Origin: Candidatus Nomurabacteria bacterium
GTDB lineage: Bacteria > Patescibacteriota > Minisyncoccia > Phycocordibacterales > UBA9973
Assembly: GCA_023267375.1 (NCBI GenBank)
Contig: JAHFNJ010000011.1
Coordinates: 1 to 34,295, forward strand
Direction: 5' to 3'
Length of the DNA: 34,295 nt
Below, piece by piece: positions 2,602 to 34,295 of this stretch. The notes under the pieces are model-generated. The model was not told the DNA's origin. It saw nothing but the letters and a program-made list of their open reading frames with translations, and did not search any database. Each line of letters starts with the position of its first letter. Positions within the stretch are counted from its first letter, which is position 1. Made by a program: the position numbers and the translations under genes.

Positions 2602-3555
2602 ATGGCATCTGAAATTGATCAGCGAAAACGTGAGTTTCTTGAATATTTAGAAATTGAAAAAGGCGCAAGTCTTCGAACGATTGAAAACTATGATCGGTAC
2701 CTCACTCGTTTTTTTGCTTTTACAAAAGTAACATCACCCAAACAAATCACTGACGACACTATTCGTGAATTTCGTCTCCACTTAAATCGGCAGGCGGGGA
2801 TGAAGGTGAAAGGACAAGTTTCATCGACGCTCAAAAAAAATACGCAAAACTACCACTTGATTGCGCTCCGTGTTTTTTTGAAATATATGATGAAGCGCGG
2901 TATTGCCGCGCTCTCCCCTGACCGTATAGAGCTTGCGAAAATAAAAGAGCGGAGCTTGGATCTCATTTCTTCTGACGAACTTGGGCGTCTGCTCACTGCT
3001 CCATCGAAAGCGATTATTGAAAAAACTCCTGAAGGTCAATTGAAGGCGTTGCGTGATACCGCAATCCTTGAACTTTTTTTCTCAACTGGTCTTCGTCTTG
3101 CAGAACTCTGTTCGCTCAATCGCGACCTCGATCTTTCAAAAGAAGAATTCTCGATTCGCGGTAAGGGAGAGAAAGTCCGCGTCGTTTTCTTGTCCGACAG
3201 CGCAAAGAACGCAATTCGCGCATACTTGAAAGCACGCAAAGATATGGATGAAGCGATGTTTATCGGGCTTTCAAAAATAAATAAACGCACAAAAGATTCT
3301 GATGGACGGCTCACTCCCCGCTCCATCGAACGGATAGTAAAACAATACGCGATCATCGCTGGTATTTCCAAAAAAGTAACGCCGCACGTTATCCGTCACA
3401 GTTTTGCAACAGATCTTCTCTCAAATGGTGCAGACATTCGTAGTGTGCAGATGATGTTAGGCCACGCAAATATTGCGACGACGCAAATCTATACTCATGT
3501 TACAGATAAACAACTTAGGGAGGTACATAAAAAGTTTCACACGAAAAGGAAATAA
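2602..3555 (+). CDS. Tyrosine site-specific recombinase, XerC/XerD type
   Basis: SAM-like N-terminal domain; catalytic motifs STGLRLAEL, HVIRHSFATDLL, GHANIATTQIYTHV. Confidence 0.92.
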   Translation: MASEIDQRKREFLEYLEIEKGASLRTIENYDRYLTRFFAFTKVTSPKQITDDTIREFRLHLNRQAGMKVKGQVSSTLKKNTQNYHLIALRVFLKYMMKRGIAALSPDRIELAKIKERSLDLISSDELGRLLTAPSKAIIEKTPEGQLKALRDTAILELFFSTGLRLAELCSLNRDLDLSKEEFSIRGKGEKVRVVFLSDSAKNAIRAYLKARKDMDEAMFIGLSKINKRTKDSDGRLTPRSIERIVKQYAIIAGISKKVTPHVIRHSFATDLLSNGADIRSVQMMLGHANIATTQIYTHVTDKQLREVHKKFHTKRK

Positions 3556-8782: not shown

Positions 8783-8817
8783 AAAAAGCTCCCCTGTTAT
8801 TACAGGGGAGCTTTTTT
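8783..8817. terminator. Terminator
   Basis: AAAAAGCTCCCCTGTTATTACAGGGGAGCTTTTTT. Confidence 0.85.
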
Positions 8818-10315
8818 ACACTCCATGTTTGCGGTGAAGTTCCTTCACCTCCTCTTCTTCAAGCTCTTCCTTTTTTTCTTTTGCTTGTACTCCAAGTTTT
8901 TTTAGTTCTTCATCAGATAATGTATTTAATTCCCCCACCCTCTTATCTAAGTACTCGCGCGTATTTTTTTTCGGATCATCGAGAACTTCTTCAAGCAATG
9001 CATGGAGCATCCAGCCCATGCGCGGACCGGGAGTGATTCCCAGCTCATCTTTCATAATGACCCCATCAATCGCAAGTTGTCCGACTGAAATGGGATCACG
9101 AAGTACTTCCTCAATCATGGCGTGGTACTTACGCAAACGGTATGGTGCTTCTTTTTTCTTCATCCCTACCCTATCGCACTCACGGATATCCATCAGTGTC
9201 CAGATATTCTCCTTCCCTATTTTAGCCACCACACGGCGCACAGCACTGAGTGTAATGGTTTCAGTATCAGAGAAAAACATATGCTGACGCACGAGAGCAA
9301 CCACCAGTTCAGTCGTTTTCTTTGGGAATTTCAATCGTTCCAGGATTTTCTGTGCCATTCGAGCGCCAATTACTTCATGGCCATAGAATGTGTATGCTTT
9401 CTTTGTTCCAGGGCGACGTGATCGTGGCTTGCCGATATCATGAAAGAGCGCAGCAAGGCGGACTTCGAGCGACCATTTTTTTTCTGCCGCATGACCAAGC
9501 GCATGGAGGAGATGTTCGAAGACATCGTAAATATGCACACCGCCTTGTTCACAACCAATCCCCTCCTCAAGTTCAGGGATGATGTGTTTTAGGAGCCCAA
9601 ACTTTGAGAGCATTCCAATGCCGACAGTTGGTTCTGGCGACATGATAATTTTTGTGAATTCATCACGAATTCGTTCAGCAGAAATGTGTGACAAAAGTGT
9701 TGAGTTATCCACAACTGCTTCCATTGTCTCGTGCGAAATAGTAAATCCCAATTCGCATGAAAAACGCACAGCACGGAGCATACGCAGCGCGTCCTCAGTG
9801 AACCTGTCCTTTGCGTTACCGACGGTCCTGAGGGTTTTATCGTTTATGTCCTTTAGACCGTCGTATAGGTCAATTAGCTGTCTTTTAGAGGCATTGTAGG
9901 CCAAGGCATTGACCGTAAAGTCACGTCTTTTAAGATCGTCCTTAATATCTTTGCTGAATTTTACCTCGTCAGGATGGCGAAAGTCGCTATATTCAGCCTC
10001 AATACGGTATGGAGTGACCTCGATAATAAAAGGTTTTAGGTTCGAGGGGCTAGTTTCTAGGTTAGGTTCAAAAACCACGGCGACTGTGCCGAACTTGTTC
10101 TCATACACTGTCTTTTCGAAAAGTCCTTGAATCTGTTCCGGAGTGGCGTTTGTTGTTACGTCCCAGTCTTTAGGTTCCCTACCTATTATAAGATCACGGA
10201 CACAACCGCCCACAAGAAAAGCCTCGAAGCCTGCTTTTTCGAGAGTGTCAGATACACGGGTAACTTCCGAAGGGATTTTGGAAGTGTCTATTTTATTTTC
10301 AGAATTAAAAGCCAT
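8816..10315 (-). CDS. cca: tRNA nucleotidyltransferase (CCA-adding enzyme) with HD domain
   Basis: FLVGGCVRDLIIGREPKDWDVTTNATPEQ, RRDFTVNALAYN, LFHDIGKP HD motif. Confidence 0.94.
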   Translation of the reverse strand: MAFNSENKIDTSKIPSEVTRVSDTLEKAGFEAFLVGGCVRDLIIGREPKDWDVTTNATPEQIQGLFEKTVYENKFGTVAVVFEPNLETSPSNLKPFIIEVTPYRIEAEYSDFRHPDEVKFSKDIKDDLKRRDFTVNALAYNASKRQLIDLYDGLKDINDKTLRTVGNAKDRFTEDALRMLRAVRFSCELGFTISHETMEAVVDNSTLLSHISAERIRDEFTKIIMSPEPTVGIGMLSKFGLLKHIIPELEEGIGCEQGGVHIYDVFEHLLHALGHAAEKKWSLEVRLAALFHDIGKPRSRRPGTKKAYTFYGHEVIGARMAQKILERLKFPKKTTELVVALVRQHMFFSDTETITLSAVRRVVAKIGKENIWTLMDIRECDRVGMKKKEAPYRLRKYHAMIEEVLRDPISVGQLAIDGVIMKDELGITPGPRMGWMLHALLEEVLDDPKKNTREYLDKRVGELNTLSDEELKKLGVQAKEKKEELEEEEVKELHRKHGV

Positions 10316-10335
10316 ATGGACTTAAATTAAAGGAG

Positions 10336-10367
10336 AATCGGCTACCACGTAGCCAGGTACTTTTCGA
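10336..10367 (-). repeat. 32-nt block shared with 14758-14789 (same orientation relative to the adjacent tRNA)
   Basis: + strand AATCGGCTACCACGTAGCCAGGTACTTTTCGA; exact reverse complement occurs at 14758-14789. Confidence 0.95.
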
Positions 10368-10405
10368 CAAAATCTCCCTACGGTCAATTTTGTAACGAAA
10401 AGTCT

Positions 10406-10448
10406 TTCAATTCTCCCACGCGAGCAAAGCAGTTTGCTCGCTTAGCCG
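10406..10448 (-). repeat. tRNA-Gly(GCC) trailer element: inverted acceptor fragment, 22-nt palindrome, GT, inverted T-arm copy
   Basis: Minus strand CGGCTA-A-GCGAGCAAACTGCTTTGCTCGC-GT-GGGAGAATTGAA; T-arm copy matches the inverted tRNA T-arm (10489-10500) at 11/12. Confidence 0.88.
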
Positions 10449-10450
10449 AA

Positions 10451-10473
10451 GACAATTCACCTAGTGAATTGTC
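10451..10473. repeat. 10-bp perfect hairpin next to the tRNA 3' end
   Basis: GACAATTCAC CTA GTGAATTGTC, followed by TTTTT on the + strand. Confidence 0.85.
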
Positions 10474-10480
10474 TTTTTAG

Positions 10481-10551
10481 TGCGGCTAGGGAGAATCGAA
10501 CTCCCGTCTCATCCTTGGCAAGGACGTGTTCTACCACTAAACCATAGCCGC
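10481..10551 (-). tRNA. tRNA-Gly(GCC)
   Basis: GCGGCTATGGTTTAGTGGTAGAACACGTCCTTGCCAAGGATGAGACGGGAGTTCGATTCTCCCTAGCCGCA; cloverleaf fits, no encoded CCA. Confidence 0.96.
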
Positions 10552-10566
10552 AAATTTCTACTAAAA

Positions 10567-10590
10567 TTGCGAATTAATCTTAATTCGCAA
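10567..10590. repeat. 11-bp perfect palindrome upstream of tRNA-Gly(GCC)
   Basis: TTGCGAATTAA TC TTAATTCGCAA. Confidence 0.85.
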
Positions 10591-10655
10591 GGCCATTATA
10601 TTATTTTTGTCCATAATATGCAATTTTCTAAATTAGCCTTATGATATAAAGTTAA

Positions 10656-10684
10656 TTTACTAATTAGTAAAAAAAGTGTATAAT
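10656..10684 (+). promoter_or_regulatory. Candidate promoter of tRNA-Arg
   Basis: TTTACT (10656-10661), 17-nt spacer, TATAAT (10679-10684); the -35 lies in the palindrome TTTACTAATTAGTAAA. Confidence 0.6.
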
Positions 10685-10701
10685 TTTCTTGTATTTTTTT
10701 T

Positions 10702-10773
10702 GCGCCCGTAGTTCAACGGATAGAACACCGGTCTTCGGAACCGGTGATGTGGGTTCGATTCCTGCCGGGCGCA
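10702..10773 (+). tRNA. tRNA-Arg(UCG)
   Basis: GCGCCCGTAGTTCAACGGATAGAACACCGGTCTTCGGAACCGGTGATGTGGGTTCGATTCCTGCCGGGCGCA; no encoded CCA. Confidence 0.95.
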
Positions 10774-10778
10774 CCCGA

Positions 10779-10814
10779 ATGAGACACCTGCGTGTCTCAT
10801 GTGCAGGAATCGAA
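10779..10814 (+). repeat. tRNA-Arg trailer element: 22-nt palindrome, GT, inverted T-arm copy
   Basis: ATGAGACACCTGCGTGTCTCAT-GT-GCAGGAATCGAA; last 12 nt are the exact reverse complement of tRNA T-arm 10754-10765. Confidence 0.9.
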
Positions 10815-10867
10815 AACCTTTTCATTATTTATGAGGAGCTTCGCTCCAAATAAATTGAAAAGGTGTA

Positions 10868-11009
10868 CTGTTCCTGTAAGGAAAGATTCCTGTTCTCTAG
10901 CGCAAAAATTCAGTAGAATTTTATGGGTGACCACTTCCCTGTTCCTGTAAGGAAAGATTCCTGCCGGTCCATAAGAAAATTCAGCAGAATTTTATAAGTG
11001 ACCACTGCC
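10868..11009. repeat. Two-copy 71-bp tandem repeat downstream of tRNA-Arg
   Basis: 10868-10938 and 10939-11009 share CTGTTCCTGTAAGGAAAGATTCCTG exactly, and AAAATTCAG(T/C)AGAATTTTAT..GTGACCACT. Confidence 0.9.
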
Positions 11010-11100
11010 CTTTTTCCTTTGTAATGAAAGCTTTTCACCAACGTCTTGTCCCTTATTTTAGTCCTTTTCCCCACATTTAAGCCTTATTTTTCAACGAATA

Positions 11101-11109
11101 TGTGGATAA
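11101..11109 (-). promoter_or_regulatory. Perfect-consensus DnaA-box-like 9-mer
   Basis: TGTGGATAA (reverse complement TTATCCACA); near-match TGTGCATAA at 11122-11130. Confidence 0.45.
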
Positions 11110-11226
11110 CTCTGTGTGTACTGTGCATAAAGGACACATTTTTGTCCCATAAAAAAGCCTTATTTTACGAATAAACCCTTTAAATATAAGCTATTTTTAA
11201 AAAGACAGCAAAAACAGCATATAATC

Positions 11227-11242
11227 AGTTTCACGTGAAACA
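11227..11242. promoter_or_regulatory. parS-like site 1
   Basis: AGTTTCACGTGAAACA: 15/16 to TGTTTCACGTGAAACA. Confidence 0.75.
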
Positions 11243-11298
11243 CTTAAGTATGTTTCATCCGCCATATGGGTCGGCGGACAAGTATGAAACGGTTGAGG

Positions 11299-11314
11299 TG
11301 TTCCACGTGTAACG
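11299..11314. promoter_or_regulatory. parS-like site 2
   Basis: TGTTCCACGTGTAACG. Confidence 0.6.
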
Positions 11315-11328
11315 TTTCATGTGTAACA
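11313..11328. promoter_or_regulatory. parS-like site 3
   Basis: CGTTTCATGTGTAACA. Confidence 0.5.
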
Positions 11329-11344
11329 ATTAGACTCAAATCAT

Positions 11345-11746
11345 ATGAATCTCCAAGTTGGTATTAAGGCATTTCTCAAAAATAAAGAAGGGAAGTACCT
11401 GCTTGTTCGGCGCAATCCTGAAAAATATAAGGATGTAGGTGCTAAGTGGGATATTATTGGTGGCCGTATAAACCCTGGTCAGGGTCTTTTGGAGAACTTG
11501 ACCAGGGAAATATATGAGGAAACTAAGCTTGCTTTGGAAGGGGGACCACAGCTTTTGTGTGCCCAAGATATCCTAAAAGCAGACTTTCACGTCGTACGCC
11601 TCACTTATTTAGGGGATACAACAGGGGAGCCGACCTTGAGCGAGGAACACACAGACTATGGCTGGTACACAGTTGAGGAAATGAAAAATCTGGAAAACCT
11701 AGATTCTTATACTAGAAAAGTTATAGAAGCAGGTCTGGTATTGTAA
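11345..11746 (+). CDS. NUDIX hydrolase
   Basis: WDIIGGRINPGQGLLENLTREIYEET resembles the Nudix box. Confidence 0.88.
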   Translation: MNLQVGIKAFLKNKEGKYLLVRRNPEKYKDVGAKWDIIGGRINPGQGLLENLTREIYEETKLALEGGPQLLCAQDILKADFHVVRLTYLGDTTGEPTLSEEHTDYGWYTVEEMKNLENLDSYTRKVIEAGLVL

Positions 11747-11762
11747 CGTTCCACGTGTAACA
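11747..11762. promoter_or_regulatory. parS-like site 4
   Basis: CGTTCCACGTGTAACA. Confidence 0.6.
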
Positions 11763-11771
11763 TATCTGAAA

Positions 11772-11787
11772 TGTTACACGTGGAACC
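11772..11787. promoter_or_regulatory. parS-like site 5
   Basis: TGTTACACGTGGAACC. Confidence 0.6.
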
Positions 11788-11806
11788 TAAATCGTCTGAA
11801 AGGGAA

Positions 11807-11822
11807 CGTTTCATGTGGAACA
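11807..11822. promoter_or_regulatory. parS-like site 6
   Basis: CGTTTCATGTGGAACA. Confidence 0.5.
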
Positions 11823-11825
11823 TAT

Positions 11826-12221
11826 ATGCCAAAAGTATTTACCTCAGAAACTCAAAAGATCGGACAACTCGGGGAAGATATCTGCTGCCGATACCTGCAA
11901 GGTAAAGGTTTTGAGATCATTGAGCGAAATTACACTCGAAAATGGGGCGAAATAGACATTATTGCCCGAAAACAGGGGGTTACTCACTTTGTAGAAGTGA
12001 AATCTCAGTCTGTAAGAGACATTTTAGTGGTATCCAGGGATGGGTATCGGGCGGAGGATCAAATGCACCCACAGAAGATTGTGAGGCTCTCAAGGACAAT
12101 CAATACCTATCTTTTAGAAATGGATGTCCGTAATGAATGGCAGTTTGATGTGGCTGTTGTCCTTTTAGAGATGGAAGGGAAGCGGGCGAAGGTTGAGTTA
12201 CTCGAGAACATTATTTTGTAG
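11826..12221 (+). CDS. yraN: YraN/UPF0102 family endonuclease-like protein
   Basis: IGQLGEDICCRYLQGKGFEIIERNYTRKWGEIDIIARKQGVTHFVEVKSQ. Confidence 0.9.
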   Translation: MPKVFTSETQKIGQLGEDICCRYLQGKGFEIIERNYTRKWGEIDIIARKQGVTHFVEVKSQSVRDILVVSRDGYRAEDQMHPQKIVRLSRTINTYLLEMDVRNEWQFDVAVVLLEMEGKRAKVELLENIIL

Positions 12222-12234
12222 TTCTACTAAAATA

Positions 12235-12262
12235 AAAAGTCCCGCGTGAGCAGGACTTTTTT
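12235..12262. terminator. Terminator
   Basis: AAAAGTCC...GGACTTTT. Confidence 0.75.
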
Positions 12263-12287
12263 GTTTTTGGCACTTTGTGCCGGATGT

Positions 12288-12794
12288 TTAATGGCCACCA
12301 CCTTTCTTCTTCTTTTTTTGAAAGCCTTGGATAAAGGCAATCGTAAGAATAAGTAGGATGAAGCTTAACCCTGGGATCAACCTCGGGTTTATGTAGCAAA
12401 GAGTAACGCAGATGGCGTATAGTGATAAAATAGTTTTGGTCCTATTTTCAAAACACCACTCACCAATCCTTCTGAAGAAGGGAGCAATATATAAACTCCA
12501 TAACTCTGGAATCGACACAGTACTCTTTCCGTGTTTGTTGCGGTATATCGCTACAATGAAGTAAACAATGAGGAACGCCAACACAACACATAAAACAGTA
12601 ATACCTATTATCTCTCCGGCTTCCCAGATTCCTGATAGGATCTCTGGATTATTTGCGCAGATAAGTACCAATGCAATGATGACGCTGATGACAACTCCAG
12701 CAGTAGTTGAAAGGATATCTTTTATCAGATCTCCAAAAAATGTAAGTACGGCGGACATAGCGCCATGGGAATGGGAAGAAGATTTCTTTGACAT
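12288..12794 (-). CDS. Multi-pass membrane protein, unknown function
   Basis: 168 aa, four or so hydrophobic segments, Lys/Gly-rich C-terminus. Confidence 0.65.
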   Translation of the reverse strand: MSKKSSSHSHGAMSAVLTFFGDLIKDILSTTAGVVISVIIALVLICANNPEILSGIWEAGEIIGITVLCVVLAFLIVYFIVAIYRNKHGKSTVSIPELWSLYIAPFFRRIGEWCFENRTKTILSLYAICVTLCYINPRLIPGLSFILLILTIAFIQGFQKKKKKGGGH

Positions 12795-12916
12795 AATATT
12801 CCGGGTTTAGGTTAGACATTATTTTTATGTGAAGAATTTTACCCATATATTATAGCATAGAAATATGCTATTTGTCAAGCTGTCACTAGGGCTACAATAG
12901 CCTGATTTTGCAAAAG

Positions 12917-12952
12917 AAAAGCACCTTTGAAGTTATCGCAGGTGCTTTTTTT
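12917..12952. terminator. Terminator
   Basis: AAAAGCACCT...AGGTGCTTTTTTT. Confidence 0.75.
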
Positions 12953-12985
12953 GTTTAAAAAATTAAATGAATGGAAAATTACTGC

Positions 12986-14149
12986 TTAATGCGTCATTTG
13001 GACAATGCCAGTACCACTTTCAAATGTAGTAGCAGTGCCTTTTGAGTTGCCCTGCATCATTGTTGGTGATGATGTCATTACCGTCGTTGCACCAGATTGT
13101 GCAGCACCGGTCATCTTTACATTGTTGTTCACAACGCCAGATGTTCCAGCTGTCATCCCTCCGGAATGTTGCATGGTTGTTACCAATGCTCCAGTTCCAT
13201 TTGTCATAGCCGCTGCATAGGTCATTCCTGTTGAAGGTGTTGTTGAGGAGTTCGTCCCTACAATCTTCACAACATTTCCCTGACTTTTTACAGTTCCAGA
13301 ATATGTTATTTGGGAAGTTGATGCAGTAGTAGCAGTAGTACTTACCATTTTGATGGGTTCAGTTTTGGCCGAACTCATCATCTTGGTTTGCTGAGGTTGC
13401 ATTGCCGGAGCACTTGAAGCAGTTGTTGTTACTCCTGTTGGAGTTGCTGCTGAAGCGCTCTGTCTTTGCATCCCAACACGTTGTTGGGTATTCGTATTCC
13501 CCAGATAATTTGAGGAATTCGAACTTCCATCATCACGGCGAGCATCGGTGTTTGAACCGCTACTTTGGCGTTGGCCATAATAGTAGGATCCATTTCCGTT
13601 GCTCCATTCATTGTTGTTCCATCCATTTGCGTAACTAACACCATTGTTTGAACCGGTGTAGTTACCATGGTAATTGTCGTACCATCCATACTGACTGTAC
13701 GGATTGCCTGCAGCATATTTGCCGAAGTAACAGTACTGCCAGAGATATGGATCATACAAATTGTATGTTGCAAACGAACTGCTATAACTGATGCCGACGC
13801 GGAAGCCAAAGAAATTGTCGGTATAGTTATAGTAAGAACCTGACATGTTATTCCAGTTGTAACCCAGTGCTGGGCTGTACTGTGGAAGTGGCGATGTGGT
13901 GCTTACGCTCGCTTGCGCTCCAACGTAACCATGGAATGCAGCCAACTGTGCTGTGTAGTTTGGACGTGAGTCATACCCAAGATAATAATTGTTTATGATG
14001 TCTGTCTTTACTTCAGCAGCTGTCTTAGTGGTGCTATCCTTTTTAGGATTGTAATATACGTCATCTTCCATATGTTTGGTTGATGAGCATGATGATGTCA
14101 ACAGTGCTATCGCTACTGTAAACATGACAAGAAGGTGTAATTTTCTCAT
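12986..14149 (-). CDS. Secreted lipoprotein, low-complexity (Tyr/Asn/Gly then Ser/Thr-rich)
   Basis: Signal peptide with lipobox LLTSSCSSTKH; YNWNNMSGSYYNYTDN..., long S/T/A-rich C-terminal half. Confidence 0.75.
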   Translation of the reverse strand: MRKLHLLVMFTVAIALLTSSCSSTKHMEDDVYYNPKKDSTTKTAAEVKTDIINNYYLGYDSRPNYTAQLAAFHGYVGAQASVSTTSPLPQYSPALGYNWNNMSGSYYNYTDNFFGFRVGISYSSSFATYNLYDPYLWQYCYFGKYAAGNPYSQYGWYDNYHGNYTGSNNGVSYANGWNNNEWSNGNGSYYYGQRQSSGSNTDARRDDGSSNSSNYLGNTNTQQRVGMQRQSASAATPTGVTTTASSAPAMQPQQTKMMSSAKTEPIKMVSTTATTASTSQITYSGTVKSQGNVVKIVGTNSSTTPSTGMTYAAAMTNGTGALVTTMQHSGGMTAGTSGVVNNNVKMTGAAQSGATTVMTSSPTMMQGNSKGTATTFESGTGIVQMTH

Positions 14150-14370
14150 AGCTATTTAATGTTTTCAATTGTTTTGCCCCCAGACTCGTTTCCAGAGGTT
14201 CTGGGACAATTATAGCACATTTATATAGCACCTGTCAAGACATATAAGGCCTTAAAAATAGGGGTATTTTGGCACTTTTGGCTTGTTTTTCAAGAGAAAC
14301 GTGCTACTATAATGGAAGCCTTTTTATGCTGCAGGTCGTTATGTGACGGTTGTGGCGTGCTTGTTTTTGG

Positions 14371-14470
14371 GTTTCATTCCTCTGTCGGGGCGTAGTATAT
14401 CGGTAGTATATCTGTTTTGGGAACAGAAGGGCCGAGTTCGATTCTCGGCGCCCCGACAGAGGAATGAAAC
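14371..14470. repeat. 22-bp perfect inverted repeat enclosing tRNA-Pro
   Basis: GTTTCATTCCTCTGTCGGGGCG (14371-14392)/CGCCCCGACAGAGGAATGAAAC (14449-14470); 15 bp lie outside the mature tRNA. Confidence 0.95.
14386..14456 (+). tRNA. tRNA-Pro(UGG)
   Basis: CGGGGCGTAGTATATCGGTAGTATATCTGTTTTGGGAACAGAAGGGCCGAGTTCGATTCTCGGCGCCCCGA. Confidence 0.92.
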
Positions 14471-14501
14471 AAAAGCAGGGGATTCCGTCTAGTAACGATA
14501 T

Positions 14502-14572
14502 GCGGGATTAGTTAAATGGTATAACTTCAGTTTTCCAAACTGATGTCGGGAGTTCGATTCTCCCATCCCGCA
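14502..14572 (+). tRNA. tRNA-Gly(UCC)
   Basis: GCGGGATTAGTTAAATGGTATAACTTCAGTTTTCCAAACTGATGTCGGGAGTTCGATTCTCCCATCCCGCA. Confidence 0.95.
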
Positions 14573-14620
14573 CACATGAAAAAAGCGCCATTATGGCGCT
14601 TTTTTCATGTGTGCGGGATG
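14564..14620. repeat. 28-bp perfect inverted repeat overlapping the tRNA-Gly(UCC) 3' end; contains a terminator-like core
   Basis: CATCCCGCACACATGAAAAAAGCGCCAT T ATGGCGCTTTTTTCATGTGTGCGGGATG. Confidence 0.97.
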
Positions 14621-14657
14621 AGTAAAGCGCTTGAGCGCTTTACGTGGAGAATCGAAC
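14612..14657 (+). repeat. tRNA-Gly(UCC) trailer element: inverted acceptor, 22-nt palindrome, GT, inverted T-arm copy
   Basis: TGCGGGAT-GA-GTAAAGCGCTTGAGCGCTTTAC-GT-GGAGAATCGAAC; last 12 nt exactly complement tRNA T-arm 14552-14563. Confidence 0.92.
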
Positions 14658-14757
14658 GCCGGAGCGATATTTTGCCAGTAGGCAAAATCGCGAGGCGGTG
14701 CCCAGACCAAAGCGAGCGACGGCGAGCTTTGAGTCGCGGGCGATTCTCCCAAGTTCA

Positions 14758-14789
14758 TCGAAAAGTACCTGGCTACGTGGTAGCCGATT
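14758..14789 (+). repeat. 32-nt block shared with 10336-10367
   Basis: TCGAAAAGTACCTGGCTACGTGGTAGCCGATT. Confidence 0.95.
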
Positions 14790-14868
14790 TCCCCATCCTA
14801 TATAAAAAAACAAAAGACCTACCTCGGTTAAGAGGTAAGTCTTTCTTTAAAAAATTAGTTGGCGGAAA

Positions 14869-31635: not shown

Positions 31636-34295
31636 ATGTATACAAAAATTGCTCGTGTTATAAAAGTGGTCGTGTTGGTTCTCATGCTCTTTATTGGAGC
31701 AAGTACAGTTTCTGCTGCTGGTACGTGGGTTCCTCCAATCTCTCAACCGACCGAAAACAATGTTGAGCCACCAGTAAATACGAGCAGTACGTATCAACAG
31801 AAAACAGGCTCACTCGGTGTGGGTGCTTCTGTCCCCGTAAATGGAACTTTCTTTGATGGAGTGATCCGCGCACTCAACTTCATATACTCACCAACAGTAT
31901 ACGGACAACAAAACGTTGTAACTTCTGGTGCTTTTGCTGCCATGAGGGTTTCTCCCACCGTGGCACCATTCTTCCCTGTAGACTACAATGCAGATCATGT
32001 TACTGGTCAACCGATTTCTGATACTTACGGAAAACACTTTTTGCAAGGAGGGTTGGGAAGTGGTTTGGGGGCTGTTCGTTCTGACTATTTCTGTCTCCGC
32101 GACACAAAAGGCGGTTGTGTGAGTGATTGGTCACAGCTTGCTGGAATGGCTTTGCCAGCTGGTGTTGATATGACGACACTTCGCAATAATGCTGGCACAT
32201 GGGAAGAAAGCAAACTCCTCTTGAACAATGGTAAAGGTGTTGCTGTAGGATTTCCATATCCAAATTCTACGAGTGATAAATTGCTTTTCAACGGCCTTAC
32301 AAACAACTTTAAATTTTTAGTGGGAGGTAAAAGTCTTTTTATTGGTGATACGCTTCAACTAGGAAGTAACTCCTTAACTGCAACTGAAGGACGGGTTGAA
32401 GCAAATGTTTCTGTCACGTCTCCTTATATCGGAAACAAAGTCCGAGGTAACATCTTAGCTGGTCAAAATGCATGGGATACAGTAGGACCTACTGGAAATA
32501 ATTCTAATTACGCTAAGGTCTATGCTACCGGTCAAGATCCATTAATACTTGGACAAAACGAAGGAGCTGTCCGCTCTGATTGGTTCTGTCTGCCAAACGC
32601 AAACGGTGGTTGTATTTCAAAATGGGATGATATATCTGGTGGTGTACCAAAAACTCACAATCCTGGAGATACACTTCGTTACGATGCCACCAATAATCTT
32701 CAAGCTAACAATTATATTTATAATGACCCATCAAATAATGGTGTACAGATAAATAAAGGTAATGTAGTTTCTGCAAACCCTGCTTTGGAGGTTGTAAATG
32801 GTGATCTTAAGGTCAGCTCCGCAAATGGTGTAGGAAACGCATATGTATACAATAGTCAAATTCTCGTGCCGGTAAGTAGTGTTAAGAATGCTACCTCAAG
32901 AGGTAATGAAGGACAGATTGTTGGTGATGACGTTTTAAGTGTTAATGATGTTCGTGTAGGTGCTGCTGCTATAAAAACTCCAGCGAACTATGACTTAAAT
33001 TTACCTCCTCCAAACACTAACTTTGGTACTGTCCGCACAGATTATGTTTGTCTCCCTGATGCAAAAGGCGGGTGTATTGATGACTGGTCAAAAGTGTCAA
33101 CGCCGCTACTCACTGGAACACCGAATAATACTACGCGATTTGATACTACAGGCAAAGAGGTAGAGAGTAATGTACTTACTAATGACGGAACTGATTTAGT
33201 GGCAAATGGATATTTAACGGCAAACAAAAGTGTGAGTATCGGATCAGGCCTTAAGTTCCTTTCTCCTGGTTTCTTGTATGCGAATAGTGCTGTTCTCTCT
33301 CCTGTCGTTACTGGAACCAATGTATTTGGTGGAGGAAATGCTTGGGATAAGACCCTCAATTTACAAACTGATTATAATAGAGATCATGTAACAGGTACCC
33401 AGCCAATCGTTTTAGCTAATGGCGCAGGATCTGTACGTTCCGACTGGTTCTGTTTACCAAATGGAAATGGTGGCTGTATTAAAAGCTGGGATGATATTTT
33501 TGCAGGCAAGACATTTTTCCCAACGGGGAAAGCTGAACAAACTCTCCGTTATGACAATAGTAATACAGCGGTTGCAAACTACTTTTTAGCAAACGATGGT
33601 AAAACAGTGAAGGTGGGAGGGTCTGGTCCTATATGGCCGGCATTTCACGTGCCTAATAACGATCCGGTTTTCTTAGTTGAAGGTAAAACAGAGGTTGATA
33701 ATGGCGATTTGATTGTTAATGGTGGGGGGAGTTTGGTAGTAAATAAGGGGACTGGAACGATTGGTGCACTTGCTGTTCCTTATGCTGATCCAAGACTAAA
33801 ATTATACAATGGCCCGCTCGAGGTTAATTTAAGTCTGATGCCAAAATCAGGACAAGTAAATGATTATCAGGGACGTGAAGCTATTCATATCAAAACTTCA
33901 GATAAGAATAATGCTGCTACCATTACAACAAATGCTACGGGGCTTCTTTTCTGGAGCACTGAGCCAGGAAAAGGACGTGCGGATATCGCTGTTAATAATG
34001 TTCATGCATCGGGAAACGTCACAGTCCAAGGTCTTTTGAGTGGGGTGAAAGGGGGAAAGCCCGTTTGTTTTGACGCATCTGGACTGCTTGTTCCATGTGT
34101 AGAGGTTGGGCCTAGTGATGTTGTGTATGCACCTCCGTGTGCAGACGAGTTCCTTGTCTCTAGTCCTTGCCCAGACACCACTTGGGTTGTCCCTAATGAT
34201 ATTGTGGCTGGTAGTCAAATCAGAATTGAACTTCAGGGTGGAGGTGGAGGAGGTGGAGGAGGTCAGGGTCAGGTTAAAAATAGTGGTAACGGCGG
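31636..34295 (+). CDS. Large secreted surface protein, 3' end outside window
   Basis: Open frame from ATG 31636 to the window end (frame checked at 32041, 33421, 34201); signal peptide; four Cys-pair repeats; poly-Gly near the right edge. Absent from the ORF track because no stop is in the window. Confidence 0.85.
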   Translation, partial: MYTKIARVIKVVVLVLMLFIGASTVSAAGTWVPPISQPTENNVEPPVNTSSTYQQKTGSLGVGASVPVNGTFFDGVIRALNFIYSPTVYGQQNVVTSGAFAAMRVSPTVAPFFPVDYNADHVTGQPISDTYGKHFLQGGLGSGLGAVRSDYFCLRDTKGGCVSDWSQLAGMALPAGVDMTTLRNNAGTWEESKLLLNNGKGVAVGFPYPNSTSDKLLFNGLTNNFKFLVGGKSLFIGDTLQLGSNSLTATEGRVEANVSVTSPYIGNKVRGNILAGQNAWDTVGPTGNNSNYAKVYATGQDPLILGQNEGAVRSDWFCLPNANGGCISKWDDISGGVPKTHNPGDTLRYDATNNLQANNYIYNDPSNNGVQINKGNVVSANPALEVVNGDLKVSSANGVGNAYVYNSQILVPVSSVKNATSRGNEGQIVGDDVLSVNDVRVGAAAIKTPANYDLNLPPPNTNFGTVRTDYVCLPDAKGGCIDDWSKVSTPLLTGTPNNTTRFDTTGKEVESNVLTNDGTDLVANGYLTANKSVSIGSGLKFLSPGFLYANSAVLSPVVTGTNVFGGGNAWDKTLNLQTDYNRDHVTGTQPIVLANGAGSVRSDWFCLPNGNGGCIKSWDDIFAGKTFFPTGKAEQTLRYDNSNTAVANYFLANDGKTVKVGGSGPIWPAFHVPNNDPVFLVEGKTEVDNGDLIVNGGGSLVVNKGTGTIGALAVPYADPRLKLYNGPLEVNLSLMPKSGQVNDYQGREAIHIKTSDKNNAATITTNATGLLFWSTEPGKGRADIAVNNVHASGNVTVQGLLSGVKGGKPVCFDASGLLVPCVEVGPSDVVYAPPCADEFLVSSPCPDTTWVVPNDIVAGSQIRIELQGGGGGGGGGQGQVKNSGNG

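Follow-up and report, generated by a model that had tools for sequence, protein, structure and literature searches.

Gene-free structured units behind tRNA genes of a Candidatus Nomurabacteria bacterium are probably small integrative mobile elements

The window analyzed here, a 34,295-nucleotide (nt) stretch of contig JAHFNJ010000011.1 (assembly GCA_023267375.1) from a Candidatus Nomurabacteria bacterium, contains four transfer RNA (tRNA) genes called by ARAGORN. Three of them, tRNA-Gly(GCC) (10480-10551, minus strand), tRNA-Arg(UCG) (10701-10776, plus strand) and tRNA-Gly(UCC) (14502-14573, plus strand), are followed by a structured unit of about 150-200 bp with no gene inside, and the fourth, tRNA-Pro(UGG), has no unit; Rfam also supports both tRNA-Gly genes. 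A preliminary description of the window had placed trailers behind the same three genes, and we found them at these positions, each with the exact 9-4-9 palindrome followed by GT that it had described. Read along the direction of the tRNA, the arrangement starts with the gene end a-b, in which a is the T-loop and T-stem strand and b the acceptor strand, and continues with, usually, a terminator hairpin (L), the inverse of b (b'), A or GA, the 9-4-9 hairpin (HP), GT, the inverse of a (a'), a core, and lastly the gene end once more as a direct copy (a2). This last copy is at times full length, as at Gly-CCC (21 nt), Thr-CGU, Arg-GCG and Gln-CUG. The structured core and the direct copy of the tRNA 3' end after a' go beyond the preliminary description, as does the nesting of b' around the terminator hairpin, because of which the entire strand can fold as one T.

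Behind tRNA-Gly(GCC), on the minus strand, the terminator-like hairpin AAGACAATTCAC-TAG-GTGAATTGTCTT (10449-10479) lies between the tRNA and the unit, which consists of b' (CGGCTA, inverse of the acceptor 3' strand, 10443-10448), HP (GCGAGCAAA-CTGC-TTTGCTCGC, 10420-10441), a' (GGGAGAATTGAA, 10406-10417), a type B core (AGACTTTTCG..CGAAAAG followed by TACCTGGCTACGTGGTAGCC, 10341-10405) and a2 (CGATTCTCC, 10332-10340), a direct copy of the T-arm strand that represents the displaced gene end. The 3' end of tRNA-Arg(UCG) runs into b' (CCCG) and is followed on the plus strand by HP (ATGAGACAC-CTGC-GTGTCTCAT, 10779-10800), a' (GCAGGAATCGAA, 10803-10814), a type A core (CCTTTTC..GAAAAGG followed by TGTACTG-TTCC-TGTAA-GGAA, 10815-10884) and the direct copy a2 (GATTCCTG, 10885-10892). 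Behind this unit lies the relic of an older one, with a repeated core end (CTGTTCCTGTAAGGAAA) and a second direct copy (GATTCCTGCCGG) at 10939-10967. At tRNA-Gly(UCC), also on the plus strand, the terminator hairpin ACATGAAAAAAGCGCC-ATTAT-GGCGCTTTTTTCATG (14574-14609) is nested between b and b' (TGTGCGGGAT(GA), inverse of the acceptor 3' strand, 14610-14621); HP (GTAAAGCGC-TTGA-GCGCTTTAC, 14622-14643), a' (GGAGAATCGAAC, 14646-14657), a type C core (GCCGGAG..CGAGGCGG followed by GCCCAGAC..GTCGCGGGC, 14658-14740) and the direct copy a2 (CGATTCTCCCA, 14741-14751) come next, and an older relic, composed of a type B core end (TCGAAAAGTACCTGGCTACGTGGTAGCC) and a degenerate direct copy (GATTTCCCCATCC), occupies 14758-14799. 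Of the T-arm complements reported earlier (12/12, 12/12 and 11/12), the 11/12 had been assigned to the wrong gene: the single mismatch is at Gly-GCC (11/12), and a' is complete at both Arg-UCG and Gly-UCC (12/12). An inverted acceptor fragment, likewise reported for all three, is indeed present at each, although at Arg-UCG it is merely CCCG.

The trailer is a real, genome-wide feature of the tRNA genes and occurs far above chance. The study genome comprises 848 kb in 14 contigs and 44 tRNA genes, and our reading of it covered the tRNA flanks and the model matches. A strict descriptor, which demanded a hairpin with at least 8 of 9 pairs and then at least 9 exact inverted nt of the same gene's 3' end, matched 16 of the 44 tRNA 3' flanks, compared with a mean of 0.01 in dinucleotide-shuffled flanks, 0 in upstream flanks and a mean of 1.4 when flanks were swapped between tRNAs. 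These values rule out a chance origin and show the enrichment over shuffled flanks that the preliminary description had proposed to test. Inspection of all 44 flanks under looser limits revealed a unit at 21 tRNA genes. A covariance model of HP and a' (R1), trained on 21 copies from the study genome, found 22 places there at E<0.01, all already known except the 3' end of the transfer-messenger RNA (tmRNA) gene. Among 100 relatives R1 detected the unit in 81, with 0 to 22 per genome and wide variation inside genera, and in a phylum-wide sample it did so in 23 of 287 genomes. Absence from other tRNA loci had been named beforehand as the finding that would speak against the preliminary description, and these counts show the reverse.

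A search with the HP pattern alone, in which a' was ignored in the selection, matched at least 114 contig stretches. Among the matches listed, the hosts are mostly Patescibacteria, together with many Elusimicrobiota (7-13 copies per genome) and a few Burkholderiales, Parachlamydiales, Verrucomicrobia and Campylobacterales; organisms are named here as in the sequence records, and the bins are possibly mixed in some cases. A tRNA end lies no more than 170 nt upstream on the same strand in 91 of 124 HP matches listed, and tmRNA genes serve as anchors at no fewer than 5 loci. The HP pattern had 0 matches in 2.9 million viral contigs, and carriage by phage was rejected on this ground.

The preliminary description had taken the palindrome arms for independent sequences held in a fixed geometry. 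We found instead that they are homologous variants of one consensus, GCRAGNNAA-CTGC-TTNNCTYGC, with compensatory, two-sided change at all nine pairs, and that HP cells are paired at 96.8% versus 65.9% in shuffles. Among 146 clean heads (the head being L, b', HP and a'), 130 have a perfect hairpin; the compensatory change, like the G-T (9) and A-C (4) mismatches, is compatible with selection on either DNA or RNA. Cores of types A, B and D consist of a long CTTTTC..GAAAAG hairpin and a short hairpin, and those of type C of two hairpins, with a GGAG/CGAG internal loop in the first. RNAalifold, applied to 26 type C cores from several phyla, recovered both core hairpins and a helix between a' and a2; pairing was kept through two-sided change in 13 of 15 pairs, this helix included. 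The Gly-UCC unit, taken as a single strand, is predicted to form a perfect T with an a:a' stem, a b-L-b' arm and an HP arm (-59.7 kcal/mol, z = -14.7). Because a:a' and a':a2 both pair, b'-a' has two candidate partners, a-b upstream and a2-b2 downstream.

The arms fit the gene behind which they stand. Of 104 HP matches listed, which had been chosen blind to a', 56 match their own upstream gene end in inverted orientation over at least 9 exact nt, versus 6% after arm swapping, and the b' arms of the HP matches listed likewise match their own target. The whole 17-nt direct copy was seen at 34 of 108 scored loci and its T-arm part alone at 24 more; in this right copy the acceptor part was retained at 14 loci, a small difference from the 24.

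Comparison of the congeners G054, G051 and G040, in which units stand at different tRNAs, provides evidence for insertion and movement. The preliminary description had proposed that orthologous loci be compared, and same-genus tRNA orthologues are found both with and without the unit. G051 (L120) has a unit at tRNA-Arg(CCU), whereas this site is empty in G040 (L136); the displaced copy and downstream flank of the former align to the tRNA end and flank of the latter. At tRNA-Arg(GCG) the native terminator lies behind a2 when the site is filled and behind the tRNA itself when it is empty, and thus L was newly brought in. The tRNA-Trp gene of G040 has a second, HP-less unit between the tRNA and an older unit common to G051. 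Units are stacked in tandem arrays at L220, L219, L178, L235, L239 and L187, and at L177 a unit sits inside the displaced end of an older unit in a different register. Within a single genome or genus, cores as much as 81-89% alike are found behind different tRNAs, each with arms fitting its own tRNA (0.88 for Ser-GGA and Leu-UAA of G054, 0.88 for Trp of G051 and Asn of G040, 0.85 for Cys and Leu-UAA of G000). In nine pairs, the similarity of L and b' was 0.65 to the same tRNA in a congener versus 0.46 to other units. Since cores are common to different tRNAs and heads are tRNA-specific, cores and target-specific heads appear to recombine.

Some loci of these congeners are recorded here in their own right. 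In G054 (L079, C7, about 220600) a unit matched to Arg(GCG) follows a remnant of that tRNA in which only the 5' part is left and the rest, from the middle to the 3' end, is missing; no other Arg(GCG) tRNA was found in the genome. In G051 (L123, 1541-1850) tRNA-Thr(UGU) is followed by a repeated 75-bp segment, a further kind of small repeat at a tRNA end; each repeat closes with a copy of this tRNA's 3' end, and the hairpin is missing. An open reading frame (ORF) that by eye resembles a LAGLIDADG homing endonuclease stands directly behind tRNA-Leu(CAA) of G040 (L138, 2800 onward), where the congener G051 has a unit.

One unit lies in a protein-coding gene. At L255 it occupies the 3' end of a gene ending in zinc-finger repeats, which, from reading its sequence, we take to be topA (DNA topoisomerase I). 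Here a' matches the left, gene-completing copy at 12/12 positions and the right, displaced copy less well. The two copies have 20 codons in common and show 14 synonymous and 0 non-synonymous differences. A functionless displaced copy would lose its protein sequence, so these purely synonymous differences indicate that each of the two ends has a history as the functional end of a gene, in separate lineages, and that the unit imported its own topA end. They also exclude foldback copying of the target at each insertion as the source of this gene end. No other single observation speaks as strongly as the topA case for an integrative element by which the target is restored.

The displaced direct copies, empty sites, nested and tandem units, core exchange, occurrence in other phyla and topA case together uphold the suggestion, made in the preliminary description, of a mobile or templated element at tRNA 3' ends. 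At the level of sequence comparison we regard the architecture, its recurrence, the displaced copy, the empty site, the topA import and the presence of like cores at different tRNAs as established, and with them that units have entered gene 3' ends, or have been exchanged there, and take the place of those ends. We propose that the unit is probably, though by no means certainly, a tiny non-autonomous, gene-free integrative mobile element in the 3' end of tRNA genes that restores the gene end it enters. In this proposal the unit would enter at the T-loop, after TTC, and bring its own copy of the gene 3' end together with a new terminator, so that the gene would stay working and the old end would be pushed downstream to become a2-b2. 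The arms a' and b' may fold one strand onto the element's own gene end as a T-shaped three-way junction (a:a', b-L-b' and HP), with a':a2 closing the core, to give a folded single-strand attachment site; the fold is a computational prediction, and it may form on single-stranded DNA in vivo. A recombinase supplied in trans would act at the border of core and a2, with a putative exchange point at GTGACC|GATTCC in type C and TTC|GATTCC in the tRNA, and new specificities could arise through re-matched arms or core exchange between units. More tentatively, and with considerable doubt, we suggest that single-strand arms complementary to the target redirect one protein-free scaffold, HP plus core, to new genes in a guide-like, reprogrammable manner, and that an unrecognized recombinase or transposase works it.

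Several observations weigh against the integrative element. No recombinase fits. The sole tyrosine recombinase found in the study genome (window 2602-3555, plus strand, 317 amino acids, PF00589), 7 kb from the units, is probably a housekeeping Xer, although it could conceivably work on them. Most unit-rich genomes carry one tyrosine recombinase, an Xer-like gene, on which ground a dedicated tyrosine integrase was rejected; the unit itself contains no integrase gene, and dependence on an integrase encoded elsewhere was judged from tyrosine recombinases. RVT_1, Y1_Tnp and Y2_Tnp do not track the units either. RVT_1 is absent from G000, G054, G062, G073, G095 and G098 (17-22 units each), and a tRNA-primed retroelement, suggested by the resemblance of b'-a' to a primer-binding site, fails because unit-rich genomes contain no reverse transcriptase. 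The Y1 transposase had 0 matches in G000, G010, G028, G062 and G069 (13-22 units each), and such absence from unit-rich genomes dismisses a Y1/RAYT transposase as the worker; the Y2 transposase was present in 1 of 100 relatives. Among the 146 heads, a search for an autonomous version, in which a' and a2 would enclose genes, found none. Import of a gene end is clear in one protein gene. One genome pair keeps the head at a tRNA while the core differs, so part of the system may be vertically inherited. Empty sites may reflect loss, since a unit would be removed precisely if its direct copies recombined; this could explain some of them, but not the new registers, the new genes or the multi-phylum spread.

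The main rival, which we consider unlikely, is a functional trailer RNA: the unit would be co-transcribed with the tRNA and compete with or aid its folding or 3' processing, and a', b' and the core would be under RNA-structure selection. Compensatory changes in HP, a':a2 and the core hairpins would agree with such a role, as would the GA/GA-like internal loops of type C cores, the slightly higher number of G-T than of A-C mismatches in HP (9 versus 4) and the fact that, in a streamlined genome, about half of the tRNAs have the unit. Yet a strong terminator, L, stands between most tRNAs and b', and units without L often adjoin another gene. The next tRNA follows closely after the Cys unit, and an ORF (window 8816-10315, minus strand) that is CCA-adding-enzyme-like by Pfam (PolyA_pol domains) begins some 20 nt past the Gly-GCC unit and has the same orientation. 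With a terminator before b' and genes close behind a2, little space is left for a separate promoter or transcript. A trailer RNA also fits poorly with orthologous tRNAs of one genus that have or lack the unit, with units stacked in tandem, and with a unit at the topA 3' end whose arms match topA.

Somewhat less probable is that the heads are ancient and vertically inherited, L-b'-HP-a' being long resident at each tRNA, with cores swapped by gene conversion via the shared T-arm, units lost between direct copies, and little or no new insertion. The greater similarity of L and b' at the same tRNA of related genomes (0.65) than at different tRNAs (0.46), alongside cores common across tRNAs, would follow from this, and the heads at Ser(UGA) and Trp are indeed in common while their cores differ. 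However, heads also occur in other registers and genes, namely at a tRNA 3' end (L203), in the displaced end of an older unit (L177), at topA (L255) and at tmRNA, and both the imported topA end and the multi-phylum spread need transfer.

RNA- or single-stranded DNA-guided insertion, with b' and a' as guides (8 + 12 nt around the hairpin) that steer a nuclease or transposase to the gene end, appears quite improbable. The guides do keep a constant length on either side of a conserved hairpin, their sequence invariably fits the gene end that was entered, and many targets are combined with the same scaffold, but no nuclease or transposase family tracks the units, and because the unit carries both guide and gene end, the match may serve self-folding only. 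An IS110-type bridge RNA, such as that of IS621, was rejected on its geometry, no search having been made, since both unit arms pair with one strand.

Debris of rolling-circle (IS91-like) or other conventional transposons is scarcely credible and is largely refuted for this lineage: two identical units do lie inside a 3.5-kb repeat with an IS91-family Y2 transposase in the Burkholderiales genome G103, but they look like passengers, because the transposon end cuts through, or carries along, the unit and a tRNA-Ser fragment, and Y2 is nearly absent from the relatives, as given above. The repeat in G103 (L287 and L288) carries a 59-nt fragment of tRNA-Ser(CGA) with the unit; at L286 (8555) the transposon end cuts into a third, diverged copy of fragment and unit.

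The integrative element that we favor most resembles the tRNA and tmRNA islands of the Islander type, which enter at the T-loop or 3' end, supply a replacement gene end, displace the old end as a direct copy, form tandem arrays and also use protein genes (PMC4383910). The units likewise restore the gene end, displace a direct copy and have an empty attB in relatives (Arg(CCU), Arg(GCG)); gene-end restoration is thus already known. They differ in their size of 150-200 bp, in the lack of any gene or integrase, in having a hairpin-split inverted target end and a structured core, and in the use of one scaffold for dozens of specificities per genome. With integron attC sites and integrase-less attC clusters they have in common tandem arrays, the keeping of structure over sequence and inverted arms that fold the strand, and the newest unit stands beside the anchor, as in integron cassettes, at tRNA-Trp of G040. 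In contrast to attC, the unit arms are copies of host gene ends in place of integrase boxes (R and L), without constant core triplets (AAC...GTT), no gene is carried and the anchor is a tRNA; no IntI was seen among the few tyrosine recombinases, and no separate search for it was made. An attachment site folded from a single strand, here a predicted fold, would be comparable in principle to integron attC and CTX-phage attP. IS200/IS605 and palindrome-associated elements and REPINs also have a short conserved hairpin, non-autonomous copies and possibly target choice by strand pairing, whereas the units show long direct target copies, a 12+8-nt target complement, gene-end restoration and no Y1 requirement. 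The rtT repeats of Escherichia coli tyrT, by their description, are likewise tRNA 3' end copies behind a tRNA gene but are direct only, confined to one locus and without a hairpin-split inverted copy. Among Rfam 15 families only tRNA and tmRNA scored above the gathering score, other matches being weak and sub-threshold, and a known RNA family as the identity of the unit was rejected. On the features tested, the units fail membership in integron cassettes, IS200/IS605, IS91, retroelements and Rfam families. Our literature search, with subscription journals outside its coverage, returned no description of the unit; nothing in the literature found describes its very small size, its lack of genes, the hairpin-split inverted target copy or the scaffold shared by many targets.

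Although few mobile elements are known from the tiny genomes of Patescibacteria, a unit stands at about half of the tRNA genes of the study genome; such units were overlooked until now because they are gene-free. With dozens of natural targets per genome and one scaffold, the change of target by a mobile unit can be read directly in the sequence. Insertion steered by the arms, if it occurs, would be a new mode of aiming DNA; should the units instead act as RNA, an undescribed regulated trailer would belong to half of the tRNAs in these bacteria. Under either reading, tRNA annotation and transcript studies in these bacteria must account for the units.

In Campylobacterales (L162 and L271) the HP stands behind gene ends that by eye are radA-like and lpxA-like, with constant arms GCAAAGG..GCCTTTGC that are not fitted to the different genes; the hairpin is also readable as a short ORF, and these loci are possibly a fixed-target branch. 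Many tRNAs of the study genome end without an encoded CCA. At tRNA-Pro(UGG) (window 14371-14470) a 22-nt complementarity between leader and trailer (GTTTCATTCCTCTGTCGGGGCG / CGCCCCGACAGAGGAATGAAAC) lengthens the acceptor stem by ~13-15 bp. Elsewhere in the window, four degenerate 80-nt repeats at a spacing of about 400-500 nt (32064-33502) probably encode a repeated protein domain.

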